This document shows positions 2,421-64,000 of a stretch of 64,000 nt of DNA, in pieces (the first letter of the stretch is position 1; the number at the start of each line of letters is the position of its first letter). Under the pieces are notes generated by a model. That model searched no databases. It was not told where the DNA came from and saw only the letters and a program-made list of their open reading frames with translations. A program made the translations under genes and the position numbers. Origin of the DNA: Rhea pennata (lineage: Eukaryota > Chordata > Aves > Rheiformes > Rheidae); NCBI RefSeq assembly GCF_028389875.1, contig NC_084668.1, positions 23,613,493 to 23,677,492 of the forward strand, in the 5' to 3' direction.

Positions 2421-4771
2421 ATGAGCGCCCGTTGCCTCGTGGAGGAGTAAGGGCTCTGGCTTTCGGAGGAGGCACGCAAGCAATTGATAACATAAATATA
2501 TCTTTCACTTGCTTTGTTTCTTTATGTTTTAAGCACATCTCTCTCGGAAGGCCTCCCCCTCCGCCCCTGTTTTTTTTTTCTTCATCCGCAACTGAAACAA
2601 AACCGGCGGAGGAGCCACCTTGTCTTGCTGGAGCCTAGCTGGCAACAGCCTGCCCCGACCTGAGGCACGAGCCATTGTTAAGGGTATAACACATTTACAT
2701 ATTTTGCAATAAAACATCAGTTATTTGCATTACTGTGTCAAGTTTTATTTGATTCTTTCACCTAAAAATGACTCATTTTCCTTTCTTGTATTTTAAAAAC
2801 CAACTACTCTAAGCTTGTTTGAGAATAATCAAAAATTGCCCATTTAGCTAGAAGTCATTTTCTTTTCAAAAGGCAAATGTTATTTAATCTTTCAGCTGTT
2901 CATTGTGCCATCATAAATACTTTCTTTTCAGCACAGTTGTGGGGACTGAAATGAGCCCACTAATTGCCTCCCATTTCGACTGACATGTGGTGGTTTAGTG
3001 GAAAGAGAACACAGCGGGGAGAAGGAAATAGGAGGCTGAGAAAATGAGAGCTAATTATTTTCACTGCCTCATGTCAGGCTCTGTGTCAGCCTTGTTTTTA
3101 CAAACTGGAAGGTTTAGCACTAAATAAAACAAACTGGCGTCATGTTTTTATATACTGGCAGTGTCATGGAAGCAGCTGCACATCTCAAAGACAATATAAT
3201 GCCTGCATTCGCATGGACACCATCTGACAGCCACTGTGAGCCACTGCTAATGAGGATATCACAGTGGTGCCAAGTGAAAGGTGCTGAATTATGTATGATT
3301 CTTCATCAGTGCAGCAATAGTCCTGTACATCATTATGAGACATTGTTTTGCTGAAGAGATTAAAACATTCTTAGTTCCAGACCCTGCAACCTATACACGC
3401 TACAAGAGGTTATTAATGGAATTTTTAGGGAGAGTTTCTTGTGGATTTCTTTTTGGTTAAAAATATCTCATGGGACAAAGCAGTGGTGGGTCATGACACT
3501 ATATATGTAAAGAAGAGAAGCAAATTAACCATAATTGTGTTATCTGCCTTTAAATCCGGAATAATAAAATACAGTGTAGCTGGGTGATACATAATGATAA
3601 ATAACCCAAGTGCTGTCACTAGATGTTCAACTATAATGCCTTTAAAACAGCAGGTTTCAGCAGCTGAGATAGATAATAGCTAAGAATGTAAAGGAGCTTC
3701 TGGGGACCTAAATCACCAACATGCTACTACTTTTAGCGCCAGCATGACCAACATTTTTTTTCTTATTTGTTTCATCTGGCGTTACATCTTATTTTTCTTC
3801 TAATATCCCGTTGCCTGCTACAATGCCGTTCCCGTTTTTTCTTGAATCACATAAAAAAAAAAGGTTTATTGCAACCACTGATTTTAAAATGAGTGATGAT
3901 GATTTAAAATGATTTGGGCCTCCTTGAAAAATGAGGTGTCTCCCCAGCAAGAGTTCCAGGCTGGTGTTGCAGGAGACGTGTTTGTGGTTTAAAGCCTATG
4001 CCGGATCTTTTTCATTTTCCTTTCAGTTTCTGTTACAGACATAGTACGTACAGGGTTAAAGGAGTATTTTCAGCACAGTAAGCAGGAGACCTAATTTTTA
4101 ATGTGTTTGTGTTTTCTGTGTCGAAGCTGAGGACAAGTGGCTCGAAATACGTTTGTGATTTGCTTCTGTGTTTCTGCAGTCGTTTGCAGGGATTACTGAT
4201 TTATTAGCTTTGTCGAAATGCTACTCAGATATGCTTTTCACACAAAGTTTTAGTGATTGTGCCTCTCGGTTATGAAACTGCATTCTTTTTAATCAAAAAG
4301 CTGAAATTATTCATTTAAATCAAACTCAAACAGGTAAGTATTCGAAGGTATTTTAATGTCTGATGATTGCAAGATGCCCAGGGAAATCTTTTTTGAAGGA
4401 CCTCATGCAAGTATATTTCTCAACTAGACATTGTGAACAAACCATTTCCAAATTATTTTCTCATGTATATCTTGCACTAAATATAGTCTTGCTCCAAGAA
4501 ATGTTATGGCTCTAATGCATCAAAGAAATCAAATACATACTATTACTCTAACCAAATTTTTACTGAAGTAGTTAAACATATCTTTCCTATTCATTGCTAA
4601 ATATGAACTTACAAATTAATTGGAAAACACAGGAATATTATCCCTTTTTGCAGCACACAAACCTAGCATTATTTACTGTGTGGGTGAGCAAAATGGTTGC
4701 CAAGTTTTTAAGCAAAGAAACCAACTTATCTTACATAGTTCCTAAGTGTCTTGACTCTAAAGTCACCTGGA

Positions 4772-21796: not shown

Positions 21797-29574
<7,778 letters not shown>

Positions 29575-33340: not shown

Positions 33341-36300
33341 GTATTTTACTTTGTTCTCTGCTTTTTCCCTGTTTCCCTTTCCTTTTAATAAACAGCCATA
33401 TGTTGAAGTGTTAGGTCTCTTTAGGTAACTTCCCTTGAGGCAGACTTGTCGTCTTCCTTACCTATTACGTGATGTTCTTTCATTTTTTATGTAGGTTATA
33501 AAAATAACAATAAAGCATTGCTTCACATACTGATAAAATAACAAGGACTAAACATTCCAGAGCAACAAGCTCAGCCTCTTAACCGGTTACATTAGTGCAG
33601 AGAGGTGCAATGGAAATTTTAAAAATAGGCACTAGCTTTGGAAACAACCACTTCTGCCTTCACAATCTCACAGGATAGTGCACCTTTTTTGGCTGCAAAG
33701 CCTAAAATAATTAAAAAAAATGTTTAAAGGGGAAAGCAAGAAGATAGTAACATAAAACATAGCAGTAGCAGTTGCTCAGTAGCCTGCTCAGGCAGGCTAA
33801 AGGGATCAAAAAAGGCAAAACATTTGTCTAGCCAAAGAATGGCTTTCAGTATACTAAGGATGTGGGAATCTAGCTAACTTGGAAACTTTACCTGCGATAC
33901 CCAAAGTGAAGGCGTAGGTCTCTGCATCTGATACCTTTGGCAGAGGCACCCACTGATCTCTGCTGGCATAAACCAGTTTGTTCTCCTAGCTCTTTGCTAG
34001 TGCAGCTCTTGCATGGCTAATGGCAGAAGCTGGTGAGGGATTTTGGAAACCTGTCTGATGTCTTCTCATATTCCCAGCTTTGTGACTCAAAAAAATTGAG
34101 TGAAAAGTCATGGCTTTCTCTTACCAAGTATAGGCTGGCTAGTCTATGGAGTCCTAAACTTCAGTACGCAGGTAATGTTGGGCTATGCTGTAGAAATACA
34201 CGAGTGGGTCAGCTTCAAATGTAAAGAGAGAAGAGAGCTTTACCCTTAGTTCTCACCCTGTTTGCAAATAAACTAAGCCTGAACTCGCAGATGGGATTAA
34301 AATAAAAACTAGGGGGTGGGGGCAAAGAGGCGGATAATTTGTATGTCTGAGCTCGAAAGTGTGATGGTCGATGCTAGTGGTAGGAGTCCTGAACCTGGGA
34401 GCTGAGGGGAGGATGGGAATCCTGTTACGACTGGTGTTTAGAAGTGGATGTGTGTATTGATTTTATACAGAAACATGTCTAGTGGACAGAGCTACGGTCA
34501 TTTTGAGCAAGATCTGCTGGCTGCTATTTGGTATGCTTCTGGCTAGAATTAAATGTGAGCCCTGGTTGTGAGGATGGCAGGCAGTTCTGTTAGGCTAAAA
34601 AAATAAACCAGAAGTCAGCGTAGGGTGGGGATAGGGTAAGAAGGCATTGCATTTGTCTGCCTTTTACTAGGGGCATGTTGATAGCATTTCTCTGGTTGCT
34701 GATCACTCAAAACTAGAAAAACTTAAATGAGTTGAGCTGTAGATCCTGCTGTGCTGAACCTCGCTCATACAGTCTTTCCCCTGGAGCACGCCTGCAGATA
34801 CAGCTCGTACTTGTACCTACTCCTGAAAATGGAACCCAAATGTTACTAAACTTATACCTTTGTGTTTGGGCTCAACTTAGCTTTATATCATCGTCTCTGT
34901 GTTAATATTGTTGCAGGCAGAGTGAAATAGTGTCCTAGGTGGTGAGAAGAGATGCAAGTAACAGAAGCATATGGTAAGCAGCCTCTTTTTTTTTGATCAT
35001 GTACACAGCAATGAAGCAATCCTACCAGCACCCATTGCTTTGGCCTTGCTTTACTTTCTTTTAAACTAGAATGCCTACACATAAGTGGTATGTCTGTAAA
35101 GTGTTAGGTAATCTGGGTAAGAAACCTCCCACCAATACAAAAATTAATATTGTTCATGCTTTCCGAGAAAGCTCGCTTACATGTCTCCTCCATGAGCGTC
35201 CCAGCAAGCTCCTGTTTAAAAACAAAACAAAGCAACCGTGCGAGAAAGACTATAATGAAGTTTAGAGATATATCAGAGATGCAGGTGGGTTTTTCTATTT
35301 TATTTTTTTATTGCTAAAGTACACACACAAGCCAAATCAGTGTCAGCTATTTTGTTTAGTACCTTGGGGATTTACCATCTCCAGACATACCCTAAGATGC
35401 CGGGTTTGGAGACCTACTTGTGCTACCAGTGTTTTCCTGTACTGTCAGTTGCTCAGTTACTCCATATGCACAAACACAAGTGCTCTTCTTGTCGCCTTAC
35501 GTGCTACTCCTCTCCTGCAGCTTATTAGCAGAATTAAGCAGTAGGAAAGATCCTATTTCCGAGTGCTTTCACGGTGTGGGTTTTTGTTATTGGGTGGAGG
35601 GGGGTTGGTTTCGGTTTGGGATATTTCTTTTTGAGGCTAGTTATAATGTGAATATGACTGATAACAGTGAATCATCAAGAAGAAAAAAAACTTCTGGAAA
35701 TAAGCCAAAGTCAAATTCTTTTCTCGTGCTCTGTTCAATCTGCTTCCTCTTTAAAAGAAAACTTTCACATTAGCAGAAAAATAAATGCTTAGCCAGAGTT
35801 CTTTTTGTGTCCCTTTCAGCAGGGAGAAGGGGATGAGTGTGCCTAGCTCAAGGCCCTGCTGGCTTCCTCCTGCTGTGGAAAGTTAACGCTGAGGGTTTCT
35901 TCTTCCCCCTTTATTTCTGTTTTCATTTAACTCTTAGGAAAATAGTTGTGATATTACAATTTTGGTATTAGAAGCTGAAGGGAAGTGGTTTGCAGAGTAT
36001 CAGTCTGTTAGATGCCATTCTTTTTGTTCCTACGTGTTCTTCCAGTTTCCAAAAGCTCTAGAAATGCAATGTTTACCATCTGATTTTTCAGTCTGGAGGA
36101 AGTGTTATTGATGAGACACACAATTCACCTGATGTCAGGCTTAGCTCACTTGCTAACGGAGCCTGACTGAAATTTAGCCTCTGTTTTTCTCTGTACAGGT
36201 ATCAAGTCACACTTTTGACTTGGAAGGACCCCCAAGGAGATTTGGGTCCTGCCAGATTTTAGGGTTCCCTGCCGTGTATGCGTCAGCCTCACTGGCGTGT

Positions 36301-38395
36301 CCTTGCTCCCCATACAGTGCGCAAGGAGGGATTCCTTACAGCGAGCCTCAGAGATCCCCGTGATAATTGTCCTAGGTAACTGCTACAAGGCACTCAAATT
36401 CTCCCAGTATTTATAAAAACCTAAACCTCTTTCTGCTTCAGTTTCTGAGCAATATTTGGCTGGTGTTTGTGAGGCGTCTAAACAAGGCCAACCTTAGCCT
36501 CAGAAAATACAAGCTGTTGGAGTAGAAGAGAGGTACCTGAGGTGTTGGACCACTGGGCACCATTGCTGCTATTTTTCCCTGTAGTCACACTGAGGTTGGC
36601 AATGCTATGGTTGGCACGTTCCTGGGATGTGGGGCACTAAAAATACGAAAGAAGAAGAGAAGCTGTTTTTGTGCAAGGATCAGTCGGTGAGTGTCACTCA
36701 ATCTTGGCCCATTAGTGAGGCTGGAAAGTTGTGTTTTGTTTGACAGCCTGTCTGGAAGGGCAGGTATTCATGAGCTCCATGTCAACAGAAACCTAGGTAT
36801 TGAGGGGACCTTATGAGAGTAAATGTAAGTGCCATGAAATGTAGATACTATGGAGTGAAGCAGCAGCTGAACGGAGTCTGGAGGGTCTGTGTGCTGCGTA
36901 GGTATCTTACAGCAATGTAGAGAATCCTGAAGCCCTCGGGTGCATCGAATGCTAAGGTCCTGCGCAGAGTTAACCGCCTGCAGTTGATTTGGAGGTAACG
37001 TGTAAAGCTGCATGCTGATGATGGTCAGTGAGGCTGTTCTGATGACAGTGATAAATCAGTAACTGCACCGTACTCATTCCAGTGAAATCTGGTGGACGCC
37101 AGATCAGAGTATGGCCACAGTGAAGAAACTGAGTAGAAGGGATGAGCTAACCATCTCAGGACTCCCCTTAAGTGAAACAACCGAGGGAGAAGATAAACAG
37201 CTCATTCAAGAGTGTCCATTAAAAAGAGCAAGAAATCTTTTGAGGCATACCAGTTGCCCTAAGTGACCCTGGGTTTACCCACAGACTTTTCTCCCCTTTT
37301 CTGTATGAAAGACTTGTTTAGACTGCACAGTGCTATTTGTTGATGTAGATAAATTCTTTTTTTTAAAAAAATTATTTAAGTAGTGGTGGAGCTATGGAAT
37401 ATAACATGGTGCCATATAGCTGGATATAGCTGGAGGTACAGGAAACATTCTCAGATAATAGAAATTTCAATGTTTTTTGTCCTGGTGTAGAACTCCTCTG
37501 ATGTATATCTGCAGACATTGCCAATGCATGCCTTTTCTGCAGTTCATAGAGGTATATGTGTTAAAAACTGGAATTGCTGAAACTGGCATAAATGATGCTA
37601 GAGAGTAAAGATAATTTTCAGCCTTGATTTGTATTACAGTTTTGCATTTCGGCACACTATGTATTTCTGCATTTTTCCTAAACCTATTAGAAGACTGTTT
37701 CATGTGATAAATTGCATCTAAAAGCATATGAACATATTGCATCACTGTTTGCCCATATGTGTTAGCTTTCTGAAATAGAATGCTTTGTTGCATCCTATTA
37801 GTACAGCCTAAATATTTTTGTATTGCTGTTTTACAAGCAAAGCAAAAAGACCCCTGAAACCAGGCTGCCTTTGTGAGGGCTAGGAGAGAGAGACACAAAC
37901 ATTGGAGCACTCTTTCTTGACCTCCAAATAAGCCTTTATCTTCACTAATGTGCATTATTTTATGTTTTGCAACAGATACCCAATCTCTGTTTTGCCATCT
38001 GCTCCATGGCAATTGACACTTCAGAGGGCTGGCTATTACTGACTAGCCATGGATAGGAATACAGTAAATTCTTTACAAAATAAAAATCAATACTCACTCA
38101 CATACTGCGTATTGAAGAAAATAATTGTTTATGGCACTCAGCTTAAGCTGTTCTGGTAATCACGTCGAAAAATACAATATTTATTCATTAGATCAAATTT
38201 AATGAGGCCTCCTGGCAGTAATTATAAAAATTACTGTAGCAGTAAATTACTAATGAGTTGTGATGTGCTTCCTACCTGTGAGGAAGGACTGGGGGATGAA
38301 AATCCTGATATCCAGACAACACTAGGGAGGGTAAGATCTTGAGGCCAGGAGTCAAGCTCACGGCAGTGCAGAAGTTGTTCACTGCACCTGAATGG

Positions 38396-45693: not shown

Positions 45694-47886
45694 CCTCCCT
45701 TTCTCCCCATTTAACATTACTGGCATCATGTCTCCACCTTTTCAGCTGCCGAGGTTGCCTTTTCTGGTGCTATTCAGTGCTGCTTCCTAACAGGCTGCTA
45801 TTAAGAAATGCCAGGCACATCTTCTGCCCTGGGGATAGTTGGCTGTCTCTGACCCAGAGACAGGAGACCACTGGCTCCGGGGCAAGGGAATGAATCTAAG
45901 CCTGCTACACAGAAATGCGAAGCACTGGCATGGCACATAGAGCCGGCTTGTAAAGGGAAGCATTAACAGAATTCCCGATCGTTTCAGAGACCTAGAAAAG
46001 GATCTCGAGGACAAGCTGAAGATCTGATTATTAGGTGGTCTGACATCATTAGCTCCTTCATTTAATTACTCACGTTTGCTGTTTCTGGGACACATCTGCT
46101 GAACACAATGCTTAAACTGTGCATTTATTCAGATTTTTTTCCCCCCTTTGCCTCCTCACACCATCTTGCCCTGCTTTGAAATGACATCTGCTTAGAAATG
46201 AAAGGTTTTTATCTGATGTCTCAGCTGGTGGCATGTCAGGTAGAGATGTAACAGAGACAGTGAGATTTCAAAAACAGGGAGGATAAGACTCTCCGGATGC
46301 CTGAGGCCTTCTCTTGCTTTGCAGTGTGTGTAACAGGGAGCTACAGAGTGAGGACATCCTTCACTGCAGGAAGCTCACAGCTCTGCTACTGACAATGATT
46401 ACTGCAGGCTTTTTAGAGGTGACCGTGATCCAAGTTTTGTTTTCAGTCTCTGTTGTATTTCTGACCTCCCAGACCCATGGGACTGATAGCCACGCAGAAT
46501 TGGCCAGTCTGCTAGCAGTAGGTAACCTCGGTGGTAGCCTCACCACAGACCTCCCCTGAGTGTGCTCCGCATCCCTCCCCATGCCCACTCTGCTCCAGCA
46601 GAGAGGCTGTCCTGGAGGCCAGCTGCATAGCCAGCATCTCCTGGCAATGCTTTTGCTGCCCAGTGGCTCACTGCATTTTGCACCTGATGGCAAAAGGTAG
46701 TATCTCACCTCAAATCCTTCTAGCTGCCAGATAGGTTTTCTACAGTTAGTTCTCCAAACACGAATACAAGGTCCAGCTTGACTCCCCTATACATTTTTTT
46801 AAAGAAAGCAGCTGTGTTGTGCTTCATGAAAACAGCTTGTAATTTAGCATTACTGCATTATATCCCCTAGGCAACGCTTTCTATCTTCAGGACATGTATT
46901 TATCTCGGACTTCACAGAAGCTCTGTGGAGCTTTAGTTTTCCATCAAGAGAAGCTAAAAGAGCATCTTATTCTGTAAGGCTCTGATTGACCACAGTGTAC
47001 CTCTGGTGCTTCACTCAAGGTCTCTGCTGAACAAGATTTCTTCTTCCTCTCTTGAGCTCTCAGGATCATGCAGGCATGCTTTGCTTTCTTTGTCTTCTGC
47101 TAGACAGGGCTTTCCTGTCCTTTGGTCGGCCTTAGTACCGCTTTCAGACAGTGGTTCGTTGCCTCACTCGGGAAGCTCCTGGGGTGAACTGGAGAGAGGT
47201 CAGTAAATATATAACTTGCCAGCATTGGGTGGCTTTCCATGTTTTGTTCTGGCTTTCACTTTTGGTATTGCAGGATACCCATGGAAGATAGATGGACACG
47301 TCTTATAGTGAGCTCAGTTAAGACAAACAGAGCATGATGGCTCCACTACTTGCTCTGAAACTTCTCTTGAAGTTTGTAATGCAAAATGCTTTGTATTTGC
47401 TGCTCGTGCTCATGACCGTTTCACCCAACAGGAGCTCAGACCAGTATGCTTTTATTGTTACAAATTCTGATCCCGAAAGCACAAGAATCTGAGCTTAGTC
47501 TTTTGAAGGAGGAGATACAGTGTGCTACAGCACTTGCCAAACCAACTTCATCAGCACACACAGCTTGAGAACAAGCAAGCAAGCAAACAAGCAAGAACTG
47601 GAAATTCAAATATTAGAGAAATCCTTCAAAGTCTGCAGTCATTGGCAAGATAAATGCAAAGCTCTTTTTGCTTTTCATAGCACCGGTAATATCAGTTTAT
47701 GATTAAAAAGCTATTCTGAATTACACAAGAAGGTATTTGCCAAAAAAAATCTTTAGTTCCTATTCTATCTTTTATGATGGACAAGAAGCGCTATCCATAC
47801 TGATTGACTGTTGGCATGCGACTTACCACTGAGCAACTGTATGTTGATGGATAAGTCAGTCTCATCCAAGTGTCACGAAGATTATC

Positions 47887-47911
47887 AAAAAAAAAAAAAA
47901 AAAAAAAAAAA
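47887..47911 (+). repeat. Run of 25 A
   Basis: Uninterrupted A run. No target-site duplication or element body could be assigned. Confidence 0.95.
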
Positions 47912-50900
47912 GAGCTGTCTGTAGTTGCTCCATCTCCGAGGAGATTGCCAACTCACCCTAACAAAAGAAAACATTAGTGTGCTATTTGCGTCTCACAAAG
48001 CAACTGTGATAAGATGACATGATAAATGATAGAGGGCTTTTTTTTCCCCAGTAAAAACACATAAGGTAGCTAAATTGTCAAATGTAAAGAATATCTTGGC
48101 TCTTGCAACTGGGGTGAGTCATTTATTTTTAAAAATAGGAAACAGTCAGAAAAACAAGAGTGTAGGTTTTGGGTTTTTGGTATTTCTTAAATTCACTCTA
48201 ATTACATTAAGTAATTATATAATTAAGTAATTCATATACATATACACAGATGTGCACACCTACACACATGTGCAGGGAGAAAAAATGATAAAGGGCCAAA
48301 TTACTAACTTGCTTTCAGATATCCCACAGAAAATTGTACACGCAATCAAGCTACCATTCTGCTGGCTTGCTTGCACTAATGGCTATTTGAGTGCTCATGT
48401 TTTGTTACCCTGAATTAAAGATACGAAGGTAGGTAATTCTAGGTGGCAAAAGAGGCGGTCCCTTTAAAAACTAGCCCCATGAATCAGATTTTCAGTAGTT
48501 AGCCTCATATACATTAACTACAACTGTGCATGCATATGCCATGATTGTGTAAATTGCTAGCGATGCCTAAGAAGCTCCTTGGTTGTCCAATTCCCTGATT
48601 TGAACATACATTGAATTTTAGTGCAGCAGGTAAATCGCTGTTTGAGATTGCTAGATATTATCAAAATTTGGACCTGCATGTTTGAGATCATTACATATTG
48701 TTATTCAGCACTTCGTGGGCTTTCAAAGAGCAGATATTATCTTTTAAAAAGAGCAAAGATTGATGATGAGTTATTCATGCCTTTTTTACCTAGTTTCACT
48801 GTTTCTGGAGTACTTTCTACATGCACAGGAAGATAAGGACATGGATGCTACTGTTACTGCACCTTTAGTCACAGTTGCTGACTGTCTCATGGTGATAGTC
48901 ACATGCCACACGTTGATATCTCTGAGCATGCTGATTGTTTACGATGCTCTTAACCATCTATCTTCTCCAGCGGGCATCTATATAACGTAGAGCTGGATGA
49001 GCTCACTTTCTTCATCAGAGTCTCGGAGGTACCGAACAGCTGCCTTCCTTCTGTCCTGTGGATTGCTTAACATGCACGGACAAACACCACAGCAACCATC
49101 CCTCTTAGCAGCTGTAACGGAGCAGCCACAGGGCTGCAGTGGCAGAAATGAAGAATGTCCCTATCTCACCTCCTGGTCTGCTCTGAAACACAGTAATAAA
49201 GCAATAATCAGAGGCCTTGCATTTTGTTTTCTAATTTCTGGAGAAACAGGGGATTTCTATCTCCTCAGCACTTGCATGATTATTTCTTTTACACAATAGC
49301 TGATGTTTCTTCTGAAAGTTTTTTTCTGTATGACATCTATGTCTGCTTTCATCTTCAAGAGATGAGGCAAGTGTCTTGTGTATCTGATTCCAAGGTGCTG
49401 TAATAAAGGAAATGATAAACTTTGTGCATCTTAGCTTTATGCAGTGTAAGTAGTTCTGCTGCCTTCATGTCTTACTATAGTCAGGTCATTCAAGCTCACC
49501 TTAAAGCTCACTGCTTTAGTTATAGACAGCTACATTTTCTGAATCAGCTGGAAGAGCACTGGAAGGAGAGCTGCAACATGAATAGCTGACAAGTTACATT
49601 ATTTTTTTTTCTTAGCACTCCGTAAGATTTCTAAATATGCAAATGGATGGGCACATTGATCTTTTGGAAAGCTGTCCAACTACAATGTCTAAAGCTATGG
49701 ATGTACTGCCTACCAAGGGAACAGGAAGCAGCAGAAATGCAGTGCACGTTAAAGACAGCAGCCTCAAATCATCTGCTGTATTAGTCTCAGACTGATCTGC
49801 ACTGCACAGGCTGCCCCGGTGCTGTGTTGGCATGCAGGCTGACAAAGCGAAGTTGCTCCTATAGCACCATTTCCCTCTGTGTCTCAGGATTAAGAAAGCA
49901 CTTGGTTTGTTTAGTGACTGGCAAGTAGGAAAAAAAAAAAAAAAACAAAAAAAAAACAAAAAACCAACAACAAACCAACCCTGCCAGGAAGCAGTGCCAG
50001 TGCTCTTTGCACCTCTGGCAGACACGCTGGTGCTCCTTCTGTACAGCTCTGCCAGCTGAAGGGTGCCCTCCTGAAACACGTGTCTCCAGGGAAGCTGCCA
50101 CCAAGAGGAGCAGGAAGCATGCAGCTGGGTGAGAAGGTGCCTCTGCACCGATGCAGTGGGCCTCTTCTGAATCCATCCCAGATCCCTGGGATCCCACAGG
50201 GTTTGGAGGATTTGTCTTGAGACCTGGAGAAGGAGTAGAAGAGCTCAGCAACAGCATTTCATGCTGTTATGAAGAGAACAAATTTGGCCTTGTAGTTTGC
50301 AAATGATGGTGTTTTGCAACCTGCTGAAGGATCTTAAATGGCCCAGCCCTATTAATGTATCATAACACACCTCCAAGGCTTTTTTTTCTGTGCAATGCAA
50401 AATAGTGCATAAATTTATATCTAATTTACATCTCACATATACTAGAGATCATCTATTTTTATTGAAATTGGTGACCACAGGAAAGAAAAAAACAAAATCA
50501 AAACAGAAAATCAGAGGGGTCACACCATCTTGTGACAAATGTGCAGCTTGCTCTGTTTTGACTGACCTTGTCTTCCACAGCTTGGGAGGCTCCTTCCCCG
50601 GTGACCGAGCAGTCGAATTGCAGTTCTGATAGCCCGGGGAGCAGGTTGACTGCAGTTATTGTCACAAAGGCAATCTCCACTTCGGGGTGCAGGCCATAAC
50701 GAATGGGGCTTTTGGGGGTAGCTTCTGATGCATATTTTTGGGGTAACCTTCCTAATCCCGGTTTGATGAGACTGCAAACCCAAGAGCAAGCGCTGACTTC
50801 TGATCAAACTGTCAAAGAAATAATAAAACCCCTGTCATCCAGACAGTCGTGGCAATACTCGCTAGACAGAGTAAGGAACCTGCTTAGGCATAAATCAAAT

Positions 50901-53229: not shown

Positions 53230-53910
53230 GCTTCCCTCGGAGCACCCGGGTGCAGGGCTGTGGCGGTGCTGGCTGGGGCGACCTGAGAGGTGACACTCGC
53301 ACGCCCTGCGCCGAGCCGCAGCGAAGCCATAGAGAAAGCGGCACCGCCTAAGGAGACGAGCGGGCGCCGCAGCGCCCGCGCCCGCGTTAAAGCCGGGCGG
53401 CGCCGGCCCCGCCGGGTGCCGCTGCGGGCCGCGCCGAGGGCCCGGGCACCGCGCCCGCCGCCGCCGCCGCCCGCGCCCGCCCGCAGGGGGCGCTGCGGCT
53501 CCGGGAACGCGCCGCCGCCGCCGCCGCGGCCCCTGCCCCCGGCGCGGTGCGGAGCGGTGCGGAGCGGCGCGGTGCGGCGCGGCCCCGCCGCCGCGGGTCC
53601 CGGCCGGCCCCGGGGGGACGGGCGCGGCGGCGGCGGGCGGCACCGGCCCGGGGGCCCGCGCCGGCGGGACTGCCGCTGCGCTGCGCTGCGCTGCGCTGCG
53701 CTGCGCTGCGCGGGGGAGCGCGGCGGCGGCGGCGGCGGAGCCGCGCGGGGACCCGCGGCGGCGCGGAGCCCGGCGGGCGGGCGCGCCCGTGGCCGCCGGC
53801 TGTGTCGGGCCGGGGCCGGGCGCCGCCGCCTTTCTGTTGCCGGGGAAGATTGCTGGAAACGGGGAGGAAAAGCTTGGTACCGCTCACCGAGGCTTCCCGA
53901 ACGTTTTGCT
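53230..53910. promoter_or_regulatory. Isolated CpG island, gene not identified
   Basis: GC and CpG content rise sharply between about 53.23 and 53.9 kb, with extreme values at 53.35-53.8 kb, then fall to AT-rich DNA. This looks like a promoter island. It contains a (CTGCG)7 repeat at 53676-53710, CCG/GCG runs and GCGGAGCGGT-type repeats. No coding exon could be assigned on either strand; the long Arg/Ala/Gly/Pro-rich frames are compositional. It lies just beyond the last recognised dynein relic exon. A lncRNA or an undetected gene is possible. Confidence 0.6.
53676..53710 (+). repeat. (CTGCG)7 microsatellite
   Basis: Seven perfect CTGCG pentamers inside the isolated CpG island. Confidence 0.95.
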
Positions 53911-54711
53911 TAAATGCCAGTCGAAAAGAAGGTTTTCTTATTGGCGAATTTCTTAAAATTCAGATTAGCGCTCTTTCCTTAGTACAGATAAATATTCTAA
54001 AGAGGAGCTTCGTTTCTCCGACCATATTTGTGTAACCTGGCTCATCATTAGTACTTAAATGCACCTATGTTTATATGTATCTTTCAAGAATTAGTAACAA
54101 AAAAATACTGTTATTAAAAGCCTTCCAAAACAAAGATTACAAAGCACAGAGAAAAATAAAACGACCTAGCAGCCAAAGCAGCCTTTCCTCTTACGCGTGA
54201 TCCGAACGTTTTGGACTGAAACCTGAGCAATACGAATTGGCATAATGAACCTCACAGATTTTCCTCAGCTGAAGGTCTAATTCCAGTGCCCAGCATATTC
54301 AGAATATGTAAAAGATATGCTAGAGACACAAAAAAATCCATGGTCTCGCATTTCAAGAAAAATCAAACTAAGCTAAACCAACCAAAATAAATTCGTATGC
54401 TATACTACAGTAATTATCCGTAATGACTGCAAATTCTTTGTTTCCCATGCACACAGGCATGTTTTTAAGCAGAAGCTGAATTTGATGCTTCAGAACGAAA
54501 AGAACTAATTTCTTGTTTGATTTTTTGTGATTGATGTGCAGTTATTTCACTCTAGGATATGTGAACCAATCTTTAAGAAATGAAATGTATTCTGCTTTAT
54601 TATTTCGTTGTCTGAAAAGGCTGTTAGTGACTTCAGCATTTCAAGTGGCTTTAAAATGAGCAGTTTAATAATCACATTTTTAAAGTTTTATTTCTATGAT
54701 GCTTTACTTGC

Positions 54712-54924
54712 CTGGTCAAAATTATCCAGTGCAGCGTGAAGATCAGACAGCGTTTCAGGTGGTGGCTTATCAGTTACTTTAATAGGAGCTTTCCAAATCC
54801 CCTCTGGAATGAGATGTTCTTTAGGAGAAGGGGCAGGTTCCCACTCCTCAAAACCCAATAGCCTGAGTGACTTGTTCACTGGGTTTCTTCAGTAATTTCT
54901 CTAATGTGTCAAGCCACTTTGCTA
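54712..54924 (-). pseudogene. Dynein relic, piece 4 (VAKWL to ALDNFDQ region)
   Basis: After TTTTTTTTCAG the sequence reads VAKWLDTLEKLLKKPSEQ in one frame and, after a frame break, EEWEPAPSPKEHLIPEGIWK and PPPETLSDLHAALDNFDQ in another. Family members have AEPAPSPESHIIPQGILEN and NLHKALDNF. The donor position carries GCAAGT instead of GTAAGT. The usual NIHL before VAKWL is missing or overwritten by a T-rich run. Confidence 0.85.
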
Positions 54925-55508
54925 CTGAAAAAAAAGAAAAAGAATCAGGCATGGGGAGGAGGGGTATTGGGGAGGGGGGAGAAAGGAGGAAAAAATAGGC
55001 TTCCCAGTGAGCTATTGATTTGCTATATGAAACATTTTATTGATACAAGCAAAATGCAGACTTACGGAAGCAGTTTGATACTGCACAATATTTGAAAAAA
55101 ATCATGTGCATCTGTTTAGCACAATATACTGCATAATGACAGCAATCTTCCCTGTTTGTATCTATTTATCTGATTATACAGCGTAACAATTCTTTCTGCT
55201 ACACATTTATTTACTAAAGGATTTTTTTTAATGGATAATAAATTAGTAAATCAGAGATCATGTGCATGGGAAAACACGTTTGTCAACTCCCCCCACAGAA
55301 GATAGTGATATTTCATATTTTACGTGATGTTCAGGGATACTTGCATATACAGACCACATTGGGAAGTTACATGCTTTCCTTGTGGAAAAGACAAAGGAAG
55401 TTTTAAATCACTATTTAGTACTCTTTTATCTAGGCATACGTTACTTTGAAAAGCTTCAGTTTTTAACACTGCAATGCAGCACTGATGTAATGAAGAGCTT
55501 TGACTTAC

Positions 55509-55636
55509 TTGAAGTATAACCCAGTGGCCTTCTTTTGATGCTTTTTCCATAGCTATTTCTGCTACAGCTTCCTGTCCTTGACCCAAAGATACATTGTGAA
55601 GTTCTCCTGAGTCAATGGTAAATCCAAACTTGTTCC
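55509..55636 (-). pseudogene. Dynein relic, piece 3: intact exon with good splice sites
   Basis: This 128-nt exon has acceptor TTCTGTTTAG and donor GTAAGT. It reads open as [20 protein letters not shown] then [11 protein letters not shown] and EGHWVILQ, with the family hallmark [11 protein letters not shown] and GHWVILQN junction. It has no stop or frameshift. By itself it could be functional; the neighbouring pieces argue against that. Confidence 0.88.
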
Positions 55637-56477
55637 CTAAACAGAACAATATACAGTATTACTTGGAGCCAAATAAAGAAGTGTAGAAACAAGCATGTGT
55701 CCGACACACCGTGTTTAAATGCCACACGTTGCACGAGTCACTGAAGTGGGCAACAACCCTCAGAAATAGTTTCAATAAACCAGCTGTACCAGCTAAACTA
55801 GTACATTGTCTTGCTTCCTGGCTGGATATTCCTACGTTAGCAAAATATTGGTATGTCTGGAAAGCAACCCAGAAGGGGATTGCTAATGGTCTCCCTACCC
55901 ATTGCCTATATAAATATGTCGATGTGCACAAAAATGGATGTGCTGGGAACGTACAGCTACTTCATCTAAGGAAAAAGAAAAAATGAAATTAATGCCTGAC
56001 TGAAGGTAACAGTACATGCAGGCAGTACAAGGGGTCAGAAATCCTTACACTGAAACTAGGAGGTAGTTTGGTAACAGAAGAATTAGCAAGTTTTCAGCTT
56101 ATCTCTGTAATAGGGTCAAATCTTCCATGCATGTGTACTTACGCAAGGTTGTTGACTTGTACTAGTAAAATGGAGCAGAGCAGTCAGCTAGCTCTTACTT
56201 CCCCAGGAAGCAGCCAGCACTCACCAGGCAGCTCGCTGAGCCCGGCGCTGTGAGTGACCTTGGTAGTGCCAGCTGCAGATGTAATCCTCCCTGGGCATCA
56301 ATATGGGACGCAACAGGATTAGAAAGGCCTCATTTATTTTTCCGGTTGTGATAGTTAGGATAAAGACTAGTGGTGCGACTAGCTAATTTGGTAGGAGTTT
56401 CTCTCTTGTTCAGGAGTTATTTACATACAGTGGGTTTTCTGATTGTTAGCAATAGTGTCTAGTGTAGACTAATCTAA

Positions 56478-56625
56478 CGGTTCAAAATCATTAAGGTATC
56501 CAGTGCAGGAGATGAACACGACTGGGGAACAGGACTACCATCTTTGAAAGATTTTGTGATCACTGCCTTACGCCTCCGCACGTACTTGCTCCAAGTCACA
56601 GCTGGTCAGAGTTCCCGTAAATTAA
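56478..56625 (-). pseudogene. Dynein relic, piece 2 (VEEKLGAKYVVG to LSPGVDPL region)
   Basis: Minus-strand reading gives IYGNSDQL, stop, LGASTCGGVRQ in one frame and SFKDGSPVPQSCSSPALDTL in another, against family YAVRNFVEEKLGAKYVVGRA and SFEESGPATPMFFILSPGVD. Similarity is weak but in the right order and spacing. This is the least certain of the four pieces. Confidence 0.5.
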
Positions 56626-56839
56626 GAATTACAGTTGACAGAGCCTCACGGAACCAGCAGTTCAGGTGAAAGACCCATCTATAAGGCATAATATTTTATC
56701 GTGACTTATATTTGGTAGCGATCCAAGTACAACACACATTAGGGTCACTCACAGTGCAAAATCTGTCCTTCCAAGGGCTGAGGCTAGTAATGCAGACTGA
56801 CAGCACAAGTCACCCCGGCTGCTCTCCTGTCTCACATCA

Positions 56840-56995
56840 TCATCAGCTTCAGGAGAGAGCTTTCCACTTTTCAGACTTTGAGAGACTTCTCCTTTCCAGA
56901 CAGTCCAACTCCATCGCTTTTTCTCATCCTTCGGAGGTGCCTTCAGTGCCTCTATCCAAGTCACAGAATTTATTCATAAATATCATTGTCCACAC
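56840..56995 (-). pseudogene. Dynein relic, piece 1 (NLDRDIEG region)
   Basis: The piece starts after a good acceptor (TTTTCTTCAG on the minus strand). It reads MNKFCDLDRGTEGTSEG, stop, then EKAMELDC, against family MEEFCNLDRDIEGSAKRWKKFVE. A later part matches only in another frame (LSPEADDDVR against LRPDRMTYAVR). There is at least one nonsense change and one frameshift. Confidence 0.7.
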
Positions 56996-57812
56996 CTGAA
57001 GAAAACAGCATGTAGAGCCACTATGTTTGAACACAGGCATTTGGATTTTGAAAATCAATATAACTAAAAAGATCTTGATTTTTTTAAAAAATGTATTGAA
57101 TCTTTATCATAATCATACCTCGGTGACTAGATACATACTGTACCTTAATTTCTCCAAGCAGAGTTAGAGATAAAATCAGGTAACTGTTGCAACAGCGGTC
57201 AGTATTAACTCACAGACTTCACAAAGCATCAGTTTCTTTTTCATAACTAAAAGCTTCAGGACAAAACTACCATGAAATTAATACAATAGATTTGTAATGA
57301 CTGTTGCTATTTATCTCTGATACAGCTTTGAATTTTATTTATGGCCAGATTTCCCTTTCAGAACATTTTTAAAGCTTTTTAAAACATACAGAGCATGGCT
57401 ATCATAAGCCTAAATTATACGCATATAGAAACATGCCTCAGTACCTGAATCAGTTCACAAGTGGTGATTAACTACATTGGTTTGCAAGATCAGCTGAACC
57501 TTCAGCAAAATACGGACAAATTCTAAACCAAGGGCCTGTCTGAAACAGCTAAGGTTTCAAGTGAAATGTGAACCTGGTTTGTGTGAGCCTTTCAGTATGG
57601 CTAGACACACTGAATTGTAATAGCCATTACGTTGAGGAAGTATTAGTATGACATTCAAGCTCAGTGAAACTCAGGTATCTCTAGAACACACTGAGAAATT
57701 GCCAGATTATAGATAGCTGATGAATTACTTAAAATTTTAGATGTTTATAAAAGTCAGATCTTTACTTTTTAAAGAGTAACATACGGTCATCTGTAGCAAC
57801 TGCTGCTGCTGC

Positions 57813-57834
57813 AAAAAAAAAAAAAAAAAAAAAA
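57813..57834 (+). repeat. Run of 22 A after (CTG)n
   Basis: A short CTG/TGC stretch is followed by 22 A. No retroposon body was recognised. Confidence 0.9.
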
Positions 57835-60800
57835 GGAGCCCCACGCCATTATTTATTGTGCTGTACAGGAACATTTTGTATACTGTTATTTGTTTATTTG
57901 GTGTTTACTCCAGAAATGCATTCAGCTACGTATTAGTAGCCACCACTGAGTTATAAGCCTCCAGAGCAGCAAAAAATAGAACAAAAATAAAATGTTGACG
58001 GCTATTGCCCCTTTGAAAAAGAACAGGGATTTTGAGAGGGGAGGGAAGGAGTTTCCTTTTCCCTTGTGGAGTTTATTATTCTCTGGAAACAGGTAAACCA
58101 ACCCTGGCTCACGAAGATACTTTAGAATAGGAAATGTTTTGCCTTTGAAATGTACCAGATTACATGTCATTTCAAATCGTGTTCATGGCGAAGATACCCC
58201 TGGGACCACCTTACAAGAGCTTTATTTCTTGCCTGCAAATTAGTCAGTTCAAAACACCTCTCCTCTCATCTCTGCCTGCAGCTCTTAATGCCACACATGC
58301 CATTCGTAAAATAGGGGATAAGAATGAAAAGGCCCTGAATACAAAAATACAATTAAAAAATAAAACAAAAGATTGTAAAGGCACGAACAAGATGCAGTTC
58401 ATCCGACAAGAAAAACGAATGAATTTTTTGTGCATTTTTGGAGACATTTCAATAAAACCTCTTCTGCAGTTTCAGCAGGGGCTCACTGAAACAGCTAGGT
58501 TTTCCAAGTGGCAGACAGACAATAGCATCTAAATTATTTTTAAGAAAGCACTCATAGCACTAAAGCGACCACTACTACTAACTCCACCTTAGAGGAGAAG
58601 GGTGGAGGAAGAAGAAAGGTCAACAAATGTATCAGGTCTTTGTGTAATGCCTCACTGACATTTTCCAGCTCCCTCAGCTGGGTTTTATTTTTTTATATAT
58701 GTTTTTAAGAACCCCAGTAAAATGCAGTAAAGGATTTAAGGTTATCGCCTGTCTCTCTCTAACTTCTGACATCTCTTTATGACAATAAAGAGTCACAGCC
58801 AACTGTAACAGGAGGGCAACACAATGAATCCTGGTAAGACAGGGAAGGGGGGAGGTTCAACTTTGCTGCCCCTTTGCCCCTATTTCTTCCTCACAGAACA
58901 GAAGTGCCATCTGTTCTTAGCCCCAACATGCATGCGTTTGATTTCCATTCAGGAATAACTAACACAGGAAAAAGATTATCAAGTGATCTAAAGCGCTATC
59001 AGCATTTGCAGTCTTCCCTATCCGATGTATTTTGTTTGCACCTCCAAAGATTTACAGATAAAATGGATACAAACAAGCGCTTTAATTGCCCAAAATTATT
59101 CTGTTCCCTGGTAGAGGACCATATGGCCAAGGTGTGGAACATGACTAGATTAAGGATATAACATACTTGGGACAGAAAAAGATTTAGGAAAATCAAACGA
59201 GAGGAAGCATAGGTACTCTAACCTGAATTCAGTAAGCAATCTCTATTACTTGGTGCTGTAATACACTGCTGTAACAATGCAATATCAAGGCATAGTGAAT
59301 GCTGTGCAGCTAGGCAGTCAGTATTAAGGCATGAGCTTGTTTTTAAAAAAACGGAAAAATGTTTTTTATGCTTCATAGTCAAATTCACTATTTTTCATGT
59401 TAAAAAAAGCGCAGCAACACTAAAACCCCGAGACACCTTCCAGTGCAGCAAACAGTTTGAAATCCAAAAGACTAATGAGAGCTTCCTTCCTTCTTGACTC
59501 ACTGCTGGTGCTGAAGACTGTGCAGATCCCTCAGTCATGTCTTGCACTTTATTGTTGAAAGTAGTTGGCTGCAGTAGCAGATGTCAGTGAAGGAGAAGAG
59601 CCTACAATGTGATGTTTGCAAAGCAAGGTGGTGATTAACCAACAGGAGCAGTGGGATTTCTCTGTCCCAGCCCTTCAGTCACCAGTGCTCTTCCCTCTTG
59701 ATCTCCACTCCTGATCATATTTCTTCATGCATCTTCTCATCATTTTGCCCTTTTCTGCTGTTGCCTGCCTAACTTCTTACCTAAAACACTTCTTATATGA
59801 CCAGAACTTGCCCATGTTGTCAGATCCCTGCTTGCTTCACAAGGACTGAGGAAGGACCTGGAAGCATGGGAGATGCACAGCCAGAACTGCTGTAAACAAA
59901 TAAACTTGTAAAATGGTTTAAGCCAAGAAAATGGCCAGCAAGTAGGTTGTGCTTCAGACTAGATTATTCTGCGCAAGTCAGACATTGCTTAAGCTGTATC
60001 TGAAATGTGAAGCTTATCTGTCTGGCAAACCTACTTATGTCTACATTGTCAAAATATATGAGACAACATTTCATTTCTCCAAATTTCCATTAATTTCATT
60101 GCCTTATTTTCTTTCTTTTCCTCCTACACCAGGATGACATTTTTGAAGCATATTTTTAAGAGCATAATTTGATCAAATGATCCAAGGGAACTCCCTATAG
60201 ACATCCACAATTTAATGCTAGATCAGTTCTAAAGGTTGGTATGACTGACAATGAAATTTGGTTTAACCCTAGTTTATTTTTAGATAATAAATGCAGCATG
60301 TTTTTTTTCCAACTCAGGGCCGTGTTTTGTTTACACAGTTCAGTTAGAAATATACTGAATAAAGGCAGAGCCCAGATAGATATACATTGTGGTGACCATT
60401 CTGAACATCTGAATCTTAACACGAGCAGAAGGTGTTTGGCACCTCCCTGGAGCCAGATCATCATGCGTGTCCTAGTAGGTGATTTCCAATGGGCCTCGAG
60501 GAGACGGGGTGAGAATTCATGGGGGTGGCTGATCCGGGATTTGACACAGGAGATACTCTGCTGTGAATGCAAGGGGGGTCGACGTCTGACCATGAACTTC
60601 TTTGCCTTTCCTTTCCCGTCTCCACTTGCGATTTCACTTTCCAGCTCACAGCACGTGCACTGGAAGTCAAAGGAGCATCTTTTATCAGGTTATTATTTTT
60701 CTCCATTCCTGATTCACATTTCTGCAGGCTTTGGGCTGCTCTGCTCTGTACCTGTTGATCGCTCTTTTCAGAGGGAAGAAGGGAACTGTTGGTACGGGTG

Positions 60801-61403
60801 CAAACCCCACAGGAGGACTGTGCCGATGCAGAGCGCGAGCACGGCTGCACCAGACGCAGCACACTTCTCGCAGACAAAAGGCAGGGAAGGGAAAGACGGC
60901 ACTTTAAGCCACATCAGAGATCATTATACAATACTCTTCTCATTCAGCTCATCCTGGGAAGAATATGTACATGCAGCGGCAGCACAGATGATGTGAAGAG
61001 CTGCTGTGAAAGCAGATGCAGTGTTTGAGGTGAGGCTGGACGGTGGAGAGTGAGGAAACGAGCTGTCTTTACAGAGATGCCCCCAGTGACAGCGGCTTCT
61101 GTGAAACCAGCCTTTTGTGTGTGAAACAGGAAAGCAGCTCAGAGTGGCTGAGAGCAAACTCAGCGTGTAGGAAGCATTTCAGACCGCCAGGCATTGCCTG
61201 AAGAGGAAGGAAGTTTCCAGAGGCCCGGCAGAGCCCACGAGCAGCTCGAGCTGCAGCACGGAGCCCCGGACAGACGTGTACGAACCTGCCCCTGTTCCCC
61301 GCCGCCATGGGAGGCGAGGCCGCGAGGCACGGCTCTGCTCCCTCGCTGAAGCGAGGCCTGCACAGCCGTTAGGGAAGGCTGCGGACCGCGGACCGCGTGG
61401 CCA

Positions 61404-61421
61404 CGTGTACGTACGTACACG
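61404..61421. repeat. 18-bp perfect palindrome
   Basis: CGTGTACGTACGTACACG equals its own reverse complement. It lies about 110 bp left of the minisatellite, next to a CACGTG E-box formed at 61402-61407 and a short repeat of GCGGACC. Confidence 0.9.
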
Positions 61422-61531
61422 CGCACACATCCCCGAGCAGGAGCTTGCGCGAGGTCCGTACTCCGCCTGCAGAGTTAACTGGGCTGGGAAAGCAGGCTCG
61501 TCTCCGTCAAAAGGCAAACGGGAGCTGCGGT

Positions 61532-64000
61532 GCTGCCCGGCCGGCTCCCGGCCCGCGCCCTCGCGCGGGAGAGCCCGGCTCCCATCCCGGCCGGCTCCCG
61601 GCCCGCGCCCTCGCGCGGGAGAGCTCGGCTCCCATCCCGGCCGGCTCCCGGCCCGCGCCCTCGCGCGGAAGAGCCCGGCTCGCCGCCCGGCCGGCTCCCG
61701 GCCCGCGCCCTCGCGCGGGAGAGCCCGGCTCGCCGCCCGGCCGGCTCCCGGCCCGCGCCCTCGCGCGGGAGAGCCCGGCTCGCCGCCCGGCCGGCTCCCG
61801 GCCCGCGCCCTCGCGCGGGAGAGCTCGGCTCCCATCCCGGCCGGCTCCCGGCCCGCGCCCTCGCGCGGGAGAGCCCGGCTCGCCGCCCGGCCGGCTCCCG
61901 GCCCGCGCCCTCGCGCGGGAGAGCTCGGCTCCCATCCCGGCCGGCTCCCGGCCCGCGCCCTCGCGCGGGAGAGCTCGGCTCCCATCCCGGCCGGCTCCCG
62001 GCCCGCGCCCTCGCGCGGGAGAGCTCGGCTCCCATCCCGGCCGGCTCCCGGCCCGCGCCCTCGCGCGGGAGAGCCCGGCTCCCATCCCGGCCGGCTCCCG
62101 GCCCGCGCCCTCGCGCGGGAGAGCCTGGCTCCCATCCCGGCCGGCTCCCGGCCCGCGCCCTCGCACGGGAGAGCCCGGCTCCCATCCCGGCCGGCTCCCG
62201 GCCCGCGCCCTCGCGCGGGAGAGCTCGGCTCCCATCCCGGCCGGCTCCAGGCCCGCGCCCTCGCGCGGGAGAGCCCGGCTCCCATCCCGGCCGGCTCCCG
62301 GCCCGCGCCCTCGCGCGGGAGAGCCTGGCTCCCATCCCGGCCGGCTCCCGGCCCGCGCCCTCGCACGGGAGAGCCCGGCTCCCATCCCGGCCGGCTCCCG
62401 GCCCGCGCCCTCGCGCGGGAGAGCTCGGCTCGCCGCCCGGCCGGCTCCCGGCCCGCGCCCTCGCGCGGGAGAGCTCGGCTCCCATCCCGGCCGGCTCCCG
62501 GCCCGCGCCCTCGCGCGGGAGAGCCCGGCTCCCATCCCGGCCGGCTCCCGGCCCGCGCCCTCGCGCGGGAGAGCTCGGCTCCCATCCCGGCCGGCTCCCG
62601 GCCCGCGCCCTCGCGCGGGAGAGCTCGGCTCCCATCCCGGCCGGCTCCCGGCCCGCGCCCTCGCGCGGGAGAGCCCGGCTCCCATCCCGGCCGGCTCCCG
62701 GCCCGCGCCCTCGCGCGGGAGAGCTCGGCTCCCATCCCGGCCGGCTCCCGGCCCGCGCCCTCGCGCGGGAGAGCCCGGCTCCCATCCCGGCCGGCTCCCG
62801 GCCCGCGCCCTCGCGCGGGAGAGCTCGGCTCGCCGCCCGGCCGGCTCCCGGCCCGCGCCCTCGCGCGGGAGAGCTCGGCTCCCATCCCGGCCGGCTCCCG
62901 GCCCGCGCCCTCGCGCGGGAGAGCTCGGCTCCCATCCCGGCCGGCTCCCGGCCCGCGCCCTCGCGCGGGGGAGCCCGGCTCCCATCCCGGCCGGCTCCCG
63001 GCCCGCGCCCTTGCGCGGGAGAGCTCGGCTCCCATCCCGGCCGGCTCCCGGCCCGCGCCCTCGCGCGGGAGAGCCCGGCTCCCATCCCGGCCGGCTCCCG
63101 GCCCGCGCCCTCGCGCGGGAGAGCTCGGCTCGCCGCCCGGCCGGCTCCCGGCCCGCGCCCTCGCGCGGGAGAGCTCGGCTCCCATCCCGGCCGGCTCCCG
63201 GCCCGCGCCCTCGCGCGGGAGAGCTCGGCTCGCCGCCCGGCCGGCTCCCGGCCCGCGCCCTCGCGCGGGAGAGCTCGGCTCCCATCCCGGCCGGCTCCCG
63301 GCCCGCACCCTCGCGCGGGAGAGCTCGGCTCCCATCCCGGCCGGCTCCCGGCCCGCGCCCTCACGCGGGAGAGCCCGGCTCCCATCCCGGCCGGCTCCCG
63401 GCCCGCGCCCTCGCGCGGGAGAGCTCGGCTCCCATCCCGGCCGGCTCCCGGCCCGCACCCTCGCGCGGGAGAGCTCGGCTCCCATCCCGGCCGGCTCCCG
63501 GCCCGCGCCCTCGCGCGGGAGAGCTCGGCTCCCATCCCGGCCGGCTCCCGGCCCGCACCCTCGCGCGGGAGAGCTCGGCTCCCATCCCGGCCGGCTCCCG
63601 GCCCGCGCCCTCGCGCGGGAGAGCCCGGCTCCCATCCCGGCCGGCTCCCGGCCCGCGCCCTTGCGCTGGAGAGCCCGGCTCGCCGCCCGGCCGGCTCCCG
63701 GCCCGCGCCCTCGCGCGGGAGAGCTCGGCTCCCATCCCGGCCGGCTCCCGGCCCGCGCCCTCGCGCGGGAGAGCCCGGCTCCCATCCCGGCCGGCTCCCG
63801 GCCCGCGCCCTCGCGCGGGAGAGCTCGGCTCGCCGCCCGGCCGGCTCCCGGCCCGCGCCCTCGCGCGGGAGAGCTCGGCTCCCATCCCGGCCGGCTCCCG
63901 GCCCGCGCCCTCGCGCGGGAGAGCTCGGCTCGCCGCCCGGCCGGCTCCCGGCCCGCGCCCTCGCGCGGGAGAGCTCGGCTCCCATCCCGGCCGGCTCCCG
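61532..64000. repeat. GC-rich minisatellite, 50-bp unit, about 49 copies, runs off the right end
   Basis: The period is exactly 50 bp throughout. Every unit has a nearly constant core CCGGCTCCCGGCCCGCGCCC followed by TCGCGCGGGA. Two positions vary in concert across the array: GAGCTCGGCT or GAGCCCGGCT, and then CCCATCCCGG or CGCCGCCCGG. Rarer variants include GAGCCTGGCT, TCGCACGGGA, GCCCGCACCC and TTGCGCTGGA. The unit is over 80% GC with many CG dinucleotides. Because 50 is not a multiple of three and the minus strand lacks stop triplets, all three minus frames stay open for hundreds of codons; these are not genes. Confidence 0.98.

Follow-up and report, generated by a model that had tools for sequence, protein, structure and literature searches.

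The window, by which the whole analysed stretch of 64,000 nucleotides is meant (C6:23613493-23677492, in an assembly of 1.27 Gb and 180 contigs), contains two zinc-finger exons of CDCA7 on the plus strand, at 28358-28507 (C6:23641850-23641999) and at 29084-29220 (ends approximate). To their right, on the minus strand and therefore convergent with CDCA7, as an earlier note made from the sequence had described, are the remains of a dynein heavy-chain gene. Beyond the window by 190 kb, SP3-type zinc fingers are located at C6:23867596-23867787 on the minus strand, followed by an SP9-like gene at C6:24.0723 Mb on the plus strand. The expectation that SP3 would be the next gene to the right was thus borne out, on the strand that the proposed duplication of this block needs.

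The window and the 200 kb to its right were searched with DNAH9 (amino acids 1275-4486) and DNAH17 (amino acids 1250-4463, with one 69-residue gap filled), both taken from PDB alignments. This search identified 27 separate places at E<=1, 22 of which remain at a threshold of 0.1, 20 at 0.01 and 16 at 0.001. Each of the 27 is on the minus strand, their 351 pairs show no inversion of order, and the reversed-sequence control of the whole-interval search returned no match at E<=1. The ordered pieces extend over 161.6 kb, from window position 38277 (about amino acid 4335) to window-equivalent position 199882 (about amino acid 1292), and include, in order, the linker, the AAA ring and the C-terminal region almost to its end; the queries covered the protein from the linker onward. 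Five of the places are in the window, and the remainder are to its right (window-equivalent 65728-199882). The relic that had been noted at 54712-56995 is real, and it is larger than was noted. In single-segment searches, the best E value of the reversed control was 0.33 for the C-terminal query, 1.2 for the AAA query and 3.4 for the linker query; matches on the plus strand or out of order were scattered at E above about 0.9. Narrowed searches added a piece at 47957-47842 and, weakly, another at 56590-56531; many other weak matches in the narrowed search are attributable to chance.

Following the direction of the gene, the first piece in the window is a weak match at 56861-57100 (minus strand, as are all that follow; DNAH17 amino acids about 3737-3820) with a whole-interval E of 0.017 and one stop. 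It is succeeded by the weak piece at 56531-56590 (amino acids 3853-3872; E 19, or 0.65 in the narrowed search), which is not counted in the 27. The best piece in the window, at 55509-55640 (amino acids 3893-3936), is 73% identical to DNAH17 in an open frame and is bordered by a TTAG acceptor and a CAA/gtaagt donor. The next alignment, at 54661-54925, corresponds to amino acids about 3941-4012 at 54712-54925, the remainder probably being intron; in this piece the NIHL with which its exon would begin is missing, and the frame changes near 54850. Three further pieces are at 50564-50793 (amino acids about 4123-4198, with a single frame change and a single stop), at 47842-47957 (amino acids about 4259-4291; two frames, preceded by an acceptor-like ttttgttag, and likewise not in the 27) and at 38277-38383 (amino acids about 4299-4334; frame change before PQSFLT). 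What may be left of the final coding exons, two pieces with stops and a joint E of 0.73, is at 35006-35221 and is kept outside the totals. On the minus strand of 57101-64000, which is inside the relic gene, the whole-interval search gave no place at E<=1.

Two other features were observed inside the dead gene. One is a CpG island at 53251-54000 (GC 0.58-0.91, CpG observed/expected 1.08-1.33), to which no gene was assigned and which could be the promoter of a non-coding transcript. The other is a G+C-rich tandem array with a unit of 50 bases, comprising 81 copies with a 95% match, which runs from 61536 to the window end at 64000 and on to about 65596.

The type of dynein was assessed with a hand-joined peptide of 114 residues (55637-55509, 54925-54851 and, after the frame change, 54852-54712). 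Its best matches in the PDB were DNAH9 (8j07_n9, E 5.1e-30) and DNAH17 (9fqr_I4, E 5.7e-30), whereas the next dynein type gave only 2e-11; the list of 39 matches held no DNAH11 chain. The relic is therefore nearer to the DNAH9/17 (outer-arm beta) type than to other dynein types, in agreement with the original assignment to the DNAH9/11/17 type. That assignment had been based on four minus-strand pieces recorded without individual coordinates, so that matching them to ours is an interpretation; the three joined pieces are well supported, whereas the fourth, which we take to be 57100-56861, is weaker. Pfam was less sensitive than the DNAH9/DNAH17 sequence search: two of six relic pieces exceeded the curated cut-off (PF03028, 5.9e-10; PF12774, 1.5e-10), four gave no family, and a Dynein_C profile search of this genome placed none in the window among the 50 matches listed.

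Stops are present in 12 of the 27 places, amounting to 20 stops in 1285 codons. Five of these fall at the tails of alignments, in what is probably intron sequence (two in 54661-54711 and three in 71184-71243), and with such tails removed 15 stops in ten places remain. Furthermore, frame changes occur throughout, many exons did not turn up in the searches, and where DNAH17 has GNAGSGKSQV the AAA2 P-loop of the relic is GNAGVQNSQV. In place of the open frame and working ATPase motifs of a motor there are thus stops and an altered P-loop and, together with the frame changes and missing exons, these indicate that the relic can no longer make a motor. It might be argued that the gene is alive and evolving fast, or that it has been broken only through assembly errors, since some exons are open and that at 55640-55509 has a good splice site at either end. 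However, the lesions listed above speak against this, and the same searches gave runs of exon matches for both beta-type genes on contig C19, which makes a living gene very improbable.

The arrangement of the pieces also bears on their origin. The pieces are exon-sized and, when their edges were inspected by eye, an AG acceptor was found at nine of 21 starts (for example before 91248, 74861 and 199882) and an exact GT donor at two of 21 ends, such as that following 55509-55640, although many piece ends are alignment ends rather than exon ends. A processed retrocopy of a dynein mRNA, in which introns would be absent, is contradicted by the 161 kb spread and, given the splice signals at several edges, is ruled out for practical purposes; the earlier note had named intronless homology as what would overturn its reading. 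The relic is a dead, intron-bearing dynein gene.

The timing of its death is suggested by codon positions. Exon 55509-55637 differs from the DNAH17-like gene at 12, 7 and 28 of 43 first, second and third positions, respectively, and a weaker third-position excess is seen in the next exon tested (19, 10 and 26 of 43). Such an excess would be expected if selection had acted over a good part of the interval following the split, with the death of the gene coming later. Elsewhere in the genome, the queried relic pieces match at no more than 69% identity among the best candidates scored; judged by these candidates, an intact copy appears to be absent and the relic is, to that extent, a unitary pseudogene.

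A counterpart of the locus was identified on contig C2. There, an SP8-like gene (C2:34.6873 Mb, minus strand) is followed by an SP4-like gene (C2:35112185, plus strand; 94% identical to the SP3 query), a beta-type dynein gene, DNAH11 (C2:35.25-35.27 Mb, plus strand), and CDCA7L (C2:35272523-35272672, minus strand; 88% identical), which adjoins the end of the dynein gene and is the sole other CDCA7-type match among those listed. The series CDCA7(+), relic(-), SP3-type(-) on C6 mirrors SP4-type(+), DNAH11(+), CDCA7L(-) on C2 in content, order and orientation; the genes on either side of the relic are accordingly paralogous to those beside DNAH11 and correspond to them in order and orientation, as would be the case for an ohnolog. 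The paralog names of the SP and CDCA7 genes at the two loci are judged from sequence features and from position. With the SP3 query, a match on C29 reaches the same identity as that on C2 (94%; best 150 of 847 candidates), so that the name SP4 rests on position.

The phylogenetic analysis points in the same direction with moderate support. When calculated on the 231 columns common to both, the best tree has the relic as sister to the C2 gene (SH-aLRT/UFBoot 88.7/92), and the whole C-terminal alignment gave 91.2/94 for this pair. The residues that the relic shares exclusively with one gene number 17 for the C2 gene, seven for DNAH17 and eight for DNAH9. At 42 sites the relic and the C2 gene both depart from all four DNAH9/17 sequences, and at 17 of these they are identical, compared with a mean of 3.2 and a maximum of 10 in 10,000 shuffles; six of the 17 common residues are also present in an outgroup. 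Both are long branches, and attraction between them is therefore possible.

AU tests were performed on two alignments, for which the p values are given in order. Placement of the relic with the C2 gene alone had the highest values (0.94, 0.95). A relic+C2 pair beside DNAH17 (0.21, 0.17) or beside DNAH9 (0.066, 0.055) was less favoured without being rejected, and neither an outermost relic (0.13, 0.14) nor an outermost C2 gene (0.13, 0.14) was rejected. Descent from DNAH9, from DNAH17 or from their common ancestor would make the relic a decayed copy of another lineage, and the raw identities are compatible with this (47-55% to DNAH9/DNAH17, compared with 46% to the C2 gene over 231 columns), as are the borderline values for a sister of DNAH9 (0.050, 0.072) and those of 0.13-0.14 for a sister of DNAH9+DNAH17. 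However, a copy of the DNAH17 (0.0009, 0.0004) or the DNAH9 (0.010, 0.010) of the same genome was rejected, as was a sister of DNAH17 (0.018, 0.021); the exclusively shared residues favour the C2 gene; and both genes are located on C19, where no adjoining SP-CDCA7 pair was found among the matches listed. Such a descent is consequently improbable.

It is about equally improbable that a segment with DNAH11 was copied later, happened to land beside CDCA7 and then decayed, although the best trees do group the relic with DNAH11. When a stretch of human DNAH11 was added, the relic fell outside the two DNAH11 sequences (group 96/99, DNAH11 pair 83/83), nesting within DNAH11 was not rejected (AU p 0.11) and a sister of DNAH17 or DNAH9 was rejected (p 0.0001); this tree is to be taken as a lead only. 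Against a segmental copy, not only the flanking SP and CDCA7 genes but also the farther SP8-like and SP9-like genes are paralogous, in matching order and orientation, so that a chance landing would need to have hit exactly the right slot. Furthermore, the relic and the C2 gene are just 46% identical, though both copies are decaying. Nesting within a gene of the same species, which the earlier note had set against its own proposal, is hence rejected for DNAH9 and DNAH17, whereas for DNAH11 the low identity opposes it and the AU test leaves it standing.

The DNAH11 gene of C2 (C2:35.16-35.27 Mb) is broken too, as far as it was read (20 kb): the frame changes within the PDRMTYALR exon and again within the final exon, and the FQxxxRMN exon contains an inserted stretch that carries a stop. 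A query of six relic exons matched the C2 gene for two exons (one at E 1.05), the DNAH9-like gene on C19 for all six (one at E 0.2) and the DNAH17-like gene on C19 for all six (one through a match spanning two exons), the counts being made by position. Similarly, among the best 55 of 140 candidates, a DNAH9 query of 822 residues gave two matches at C2 35.16-35.23 Mb and one in the relic, whereas the DNAH9-like gene had 15 (query 1-818) and the DNAH17-like gene had 13 (query 1-705). No lesion was found in the stretches of the DNAH9-like and DNAH17-like genes that were read. These two genes are together on one small contig, as they are in chicken.

The evidence is best explained if the relic is the unitary pseudogene of an axonemal dynein heavy-chain gene, the fourth of the outer-arm beta type and an ohnolog of DNAH11, to which we assign a probability of about 0.86. 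This agrees with the origin first suggested for it and is founded on one genome, in which CDCA7-relic-SP3 mirrors SP4-DNAH11-CDCA7L and the best tree places the relic beside the C2 DNAH11. In the genome duplications of early vertebrates, an ancestral block SP8/9-SP4/3-DNAH-CDCA7 would have been copied along with the HOX-linked regions. Judging from its family, the copy on the SP3 side would then long have served the outer dynein arms as a beta heavy chain, and would have been lost only afterwards.

If this is true, the outer-arm beta chains of early vertebrates numbered at least four, and the interval between SP3 and CDCA7 in other vertebrates becomes a place to seek survivors or relics. The broken state of DNAH11, the left-right dynein, in one bird genome is also of relevance to the left-right organiser of birds, for which an absence of motile cilia is reported (PMC10126504, PMC5872349). 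One might suppose that DNAH11 and its SP3-side twin both died in this bird lineage, the SP3-side copy first, leaving only DNAH9 and DNAH17, and that this decay is the genomic footprint of a switch away from cilia-driven left-right patterning; we regard this as a tentative and rather doubtful suggestion. According to PMC10126504, a chameleon, the organiser of which is also without motile cilia, still expresses Dnah11 in the otic vesicle and kidney. This argues against a simple tie between the loss of DNAH11 and that of organiser cilia, and a causal link is therefore speculation.

Each element of this reading is of a known kind, be it a dynein heavy chain, a unitary pseudogene or the loss of an ohnolog; among the open-licence literature matches listed, there was no report of this relic, of a dynein heavy-chain ohnolog or of DNAH11 loss in birds. 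DNAH9 and DNAH17 are the best named sequence matches of the relic, in a list without a DNAH11 chain; however, they are located on C19, are free of lesions as far as they were read, and the relic is a copy of neither. DNAH11, in its SP4-DNAH11-CDCA7L setting, resembles the relic in domain order where compared, in shared residues and in its mirror-image neighbours, whereas the relic occupies the paralogous SP3-CDCA7 region, is 46% identical to the DNAH11 of its own genome and is dead. An obvious candidate for a survivor is zebrafish dnah9l, likewise a beta chain gene and the third of zebrafish, which in Table 1 of PMC6008050 has a row without a human partner, in a layout that is ambiguous because Dnah8 and DNAH8 are also on separate rows. 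On the basis of that row, dnah9l could be the living counterpart of the relic.
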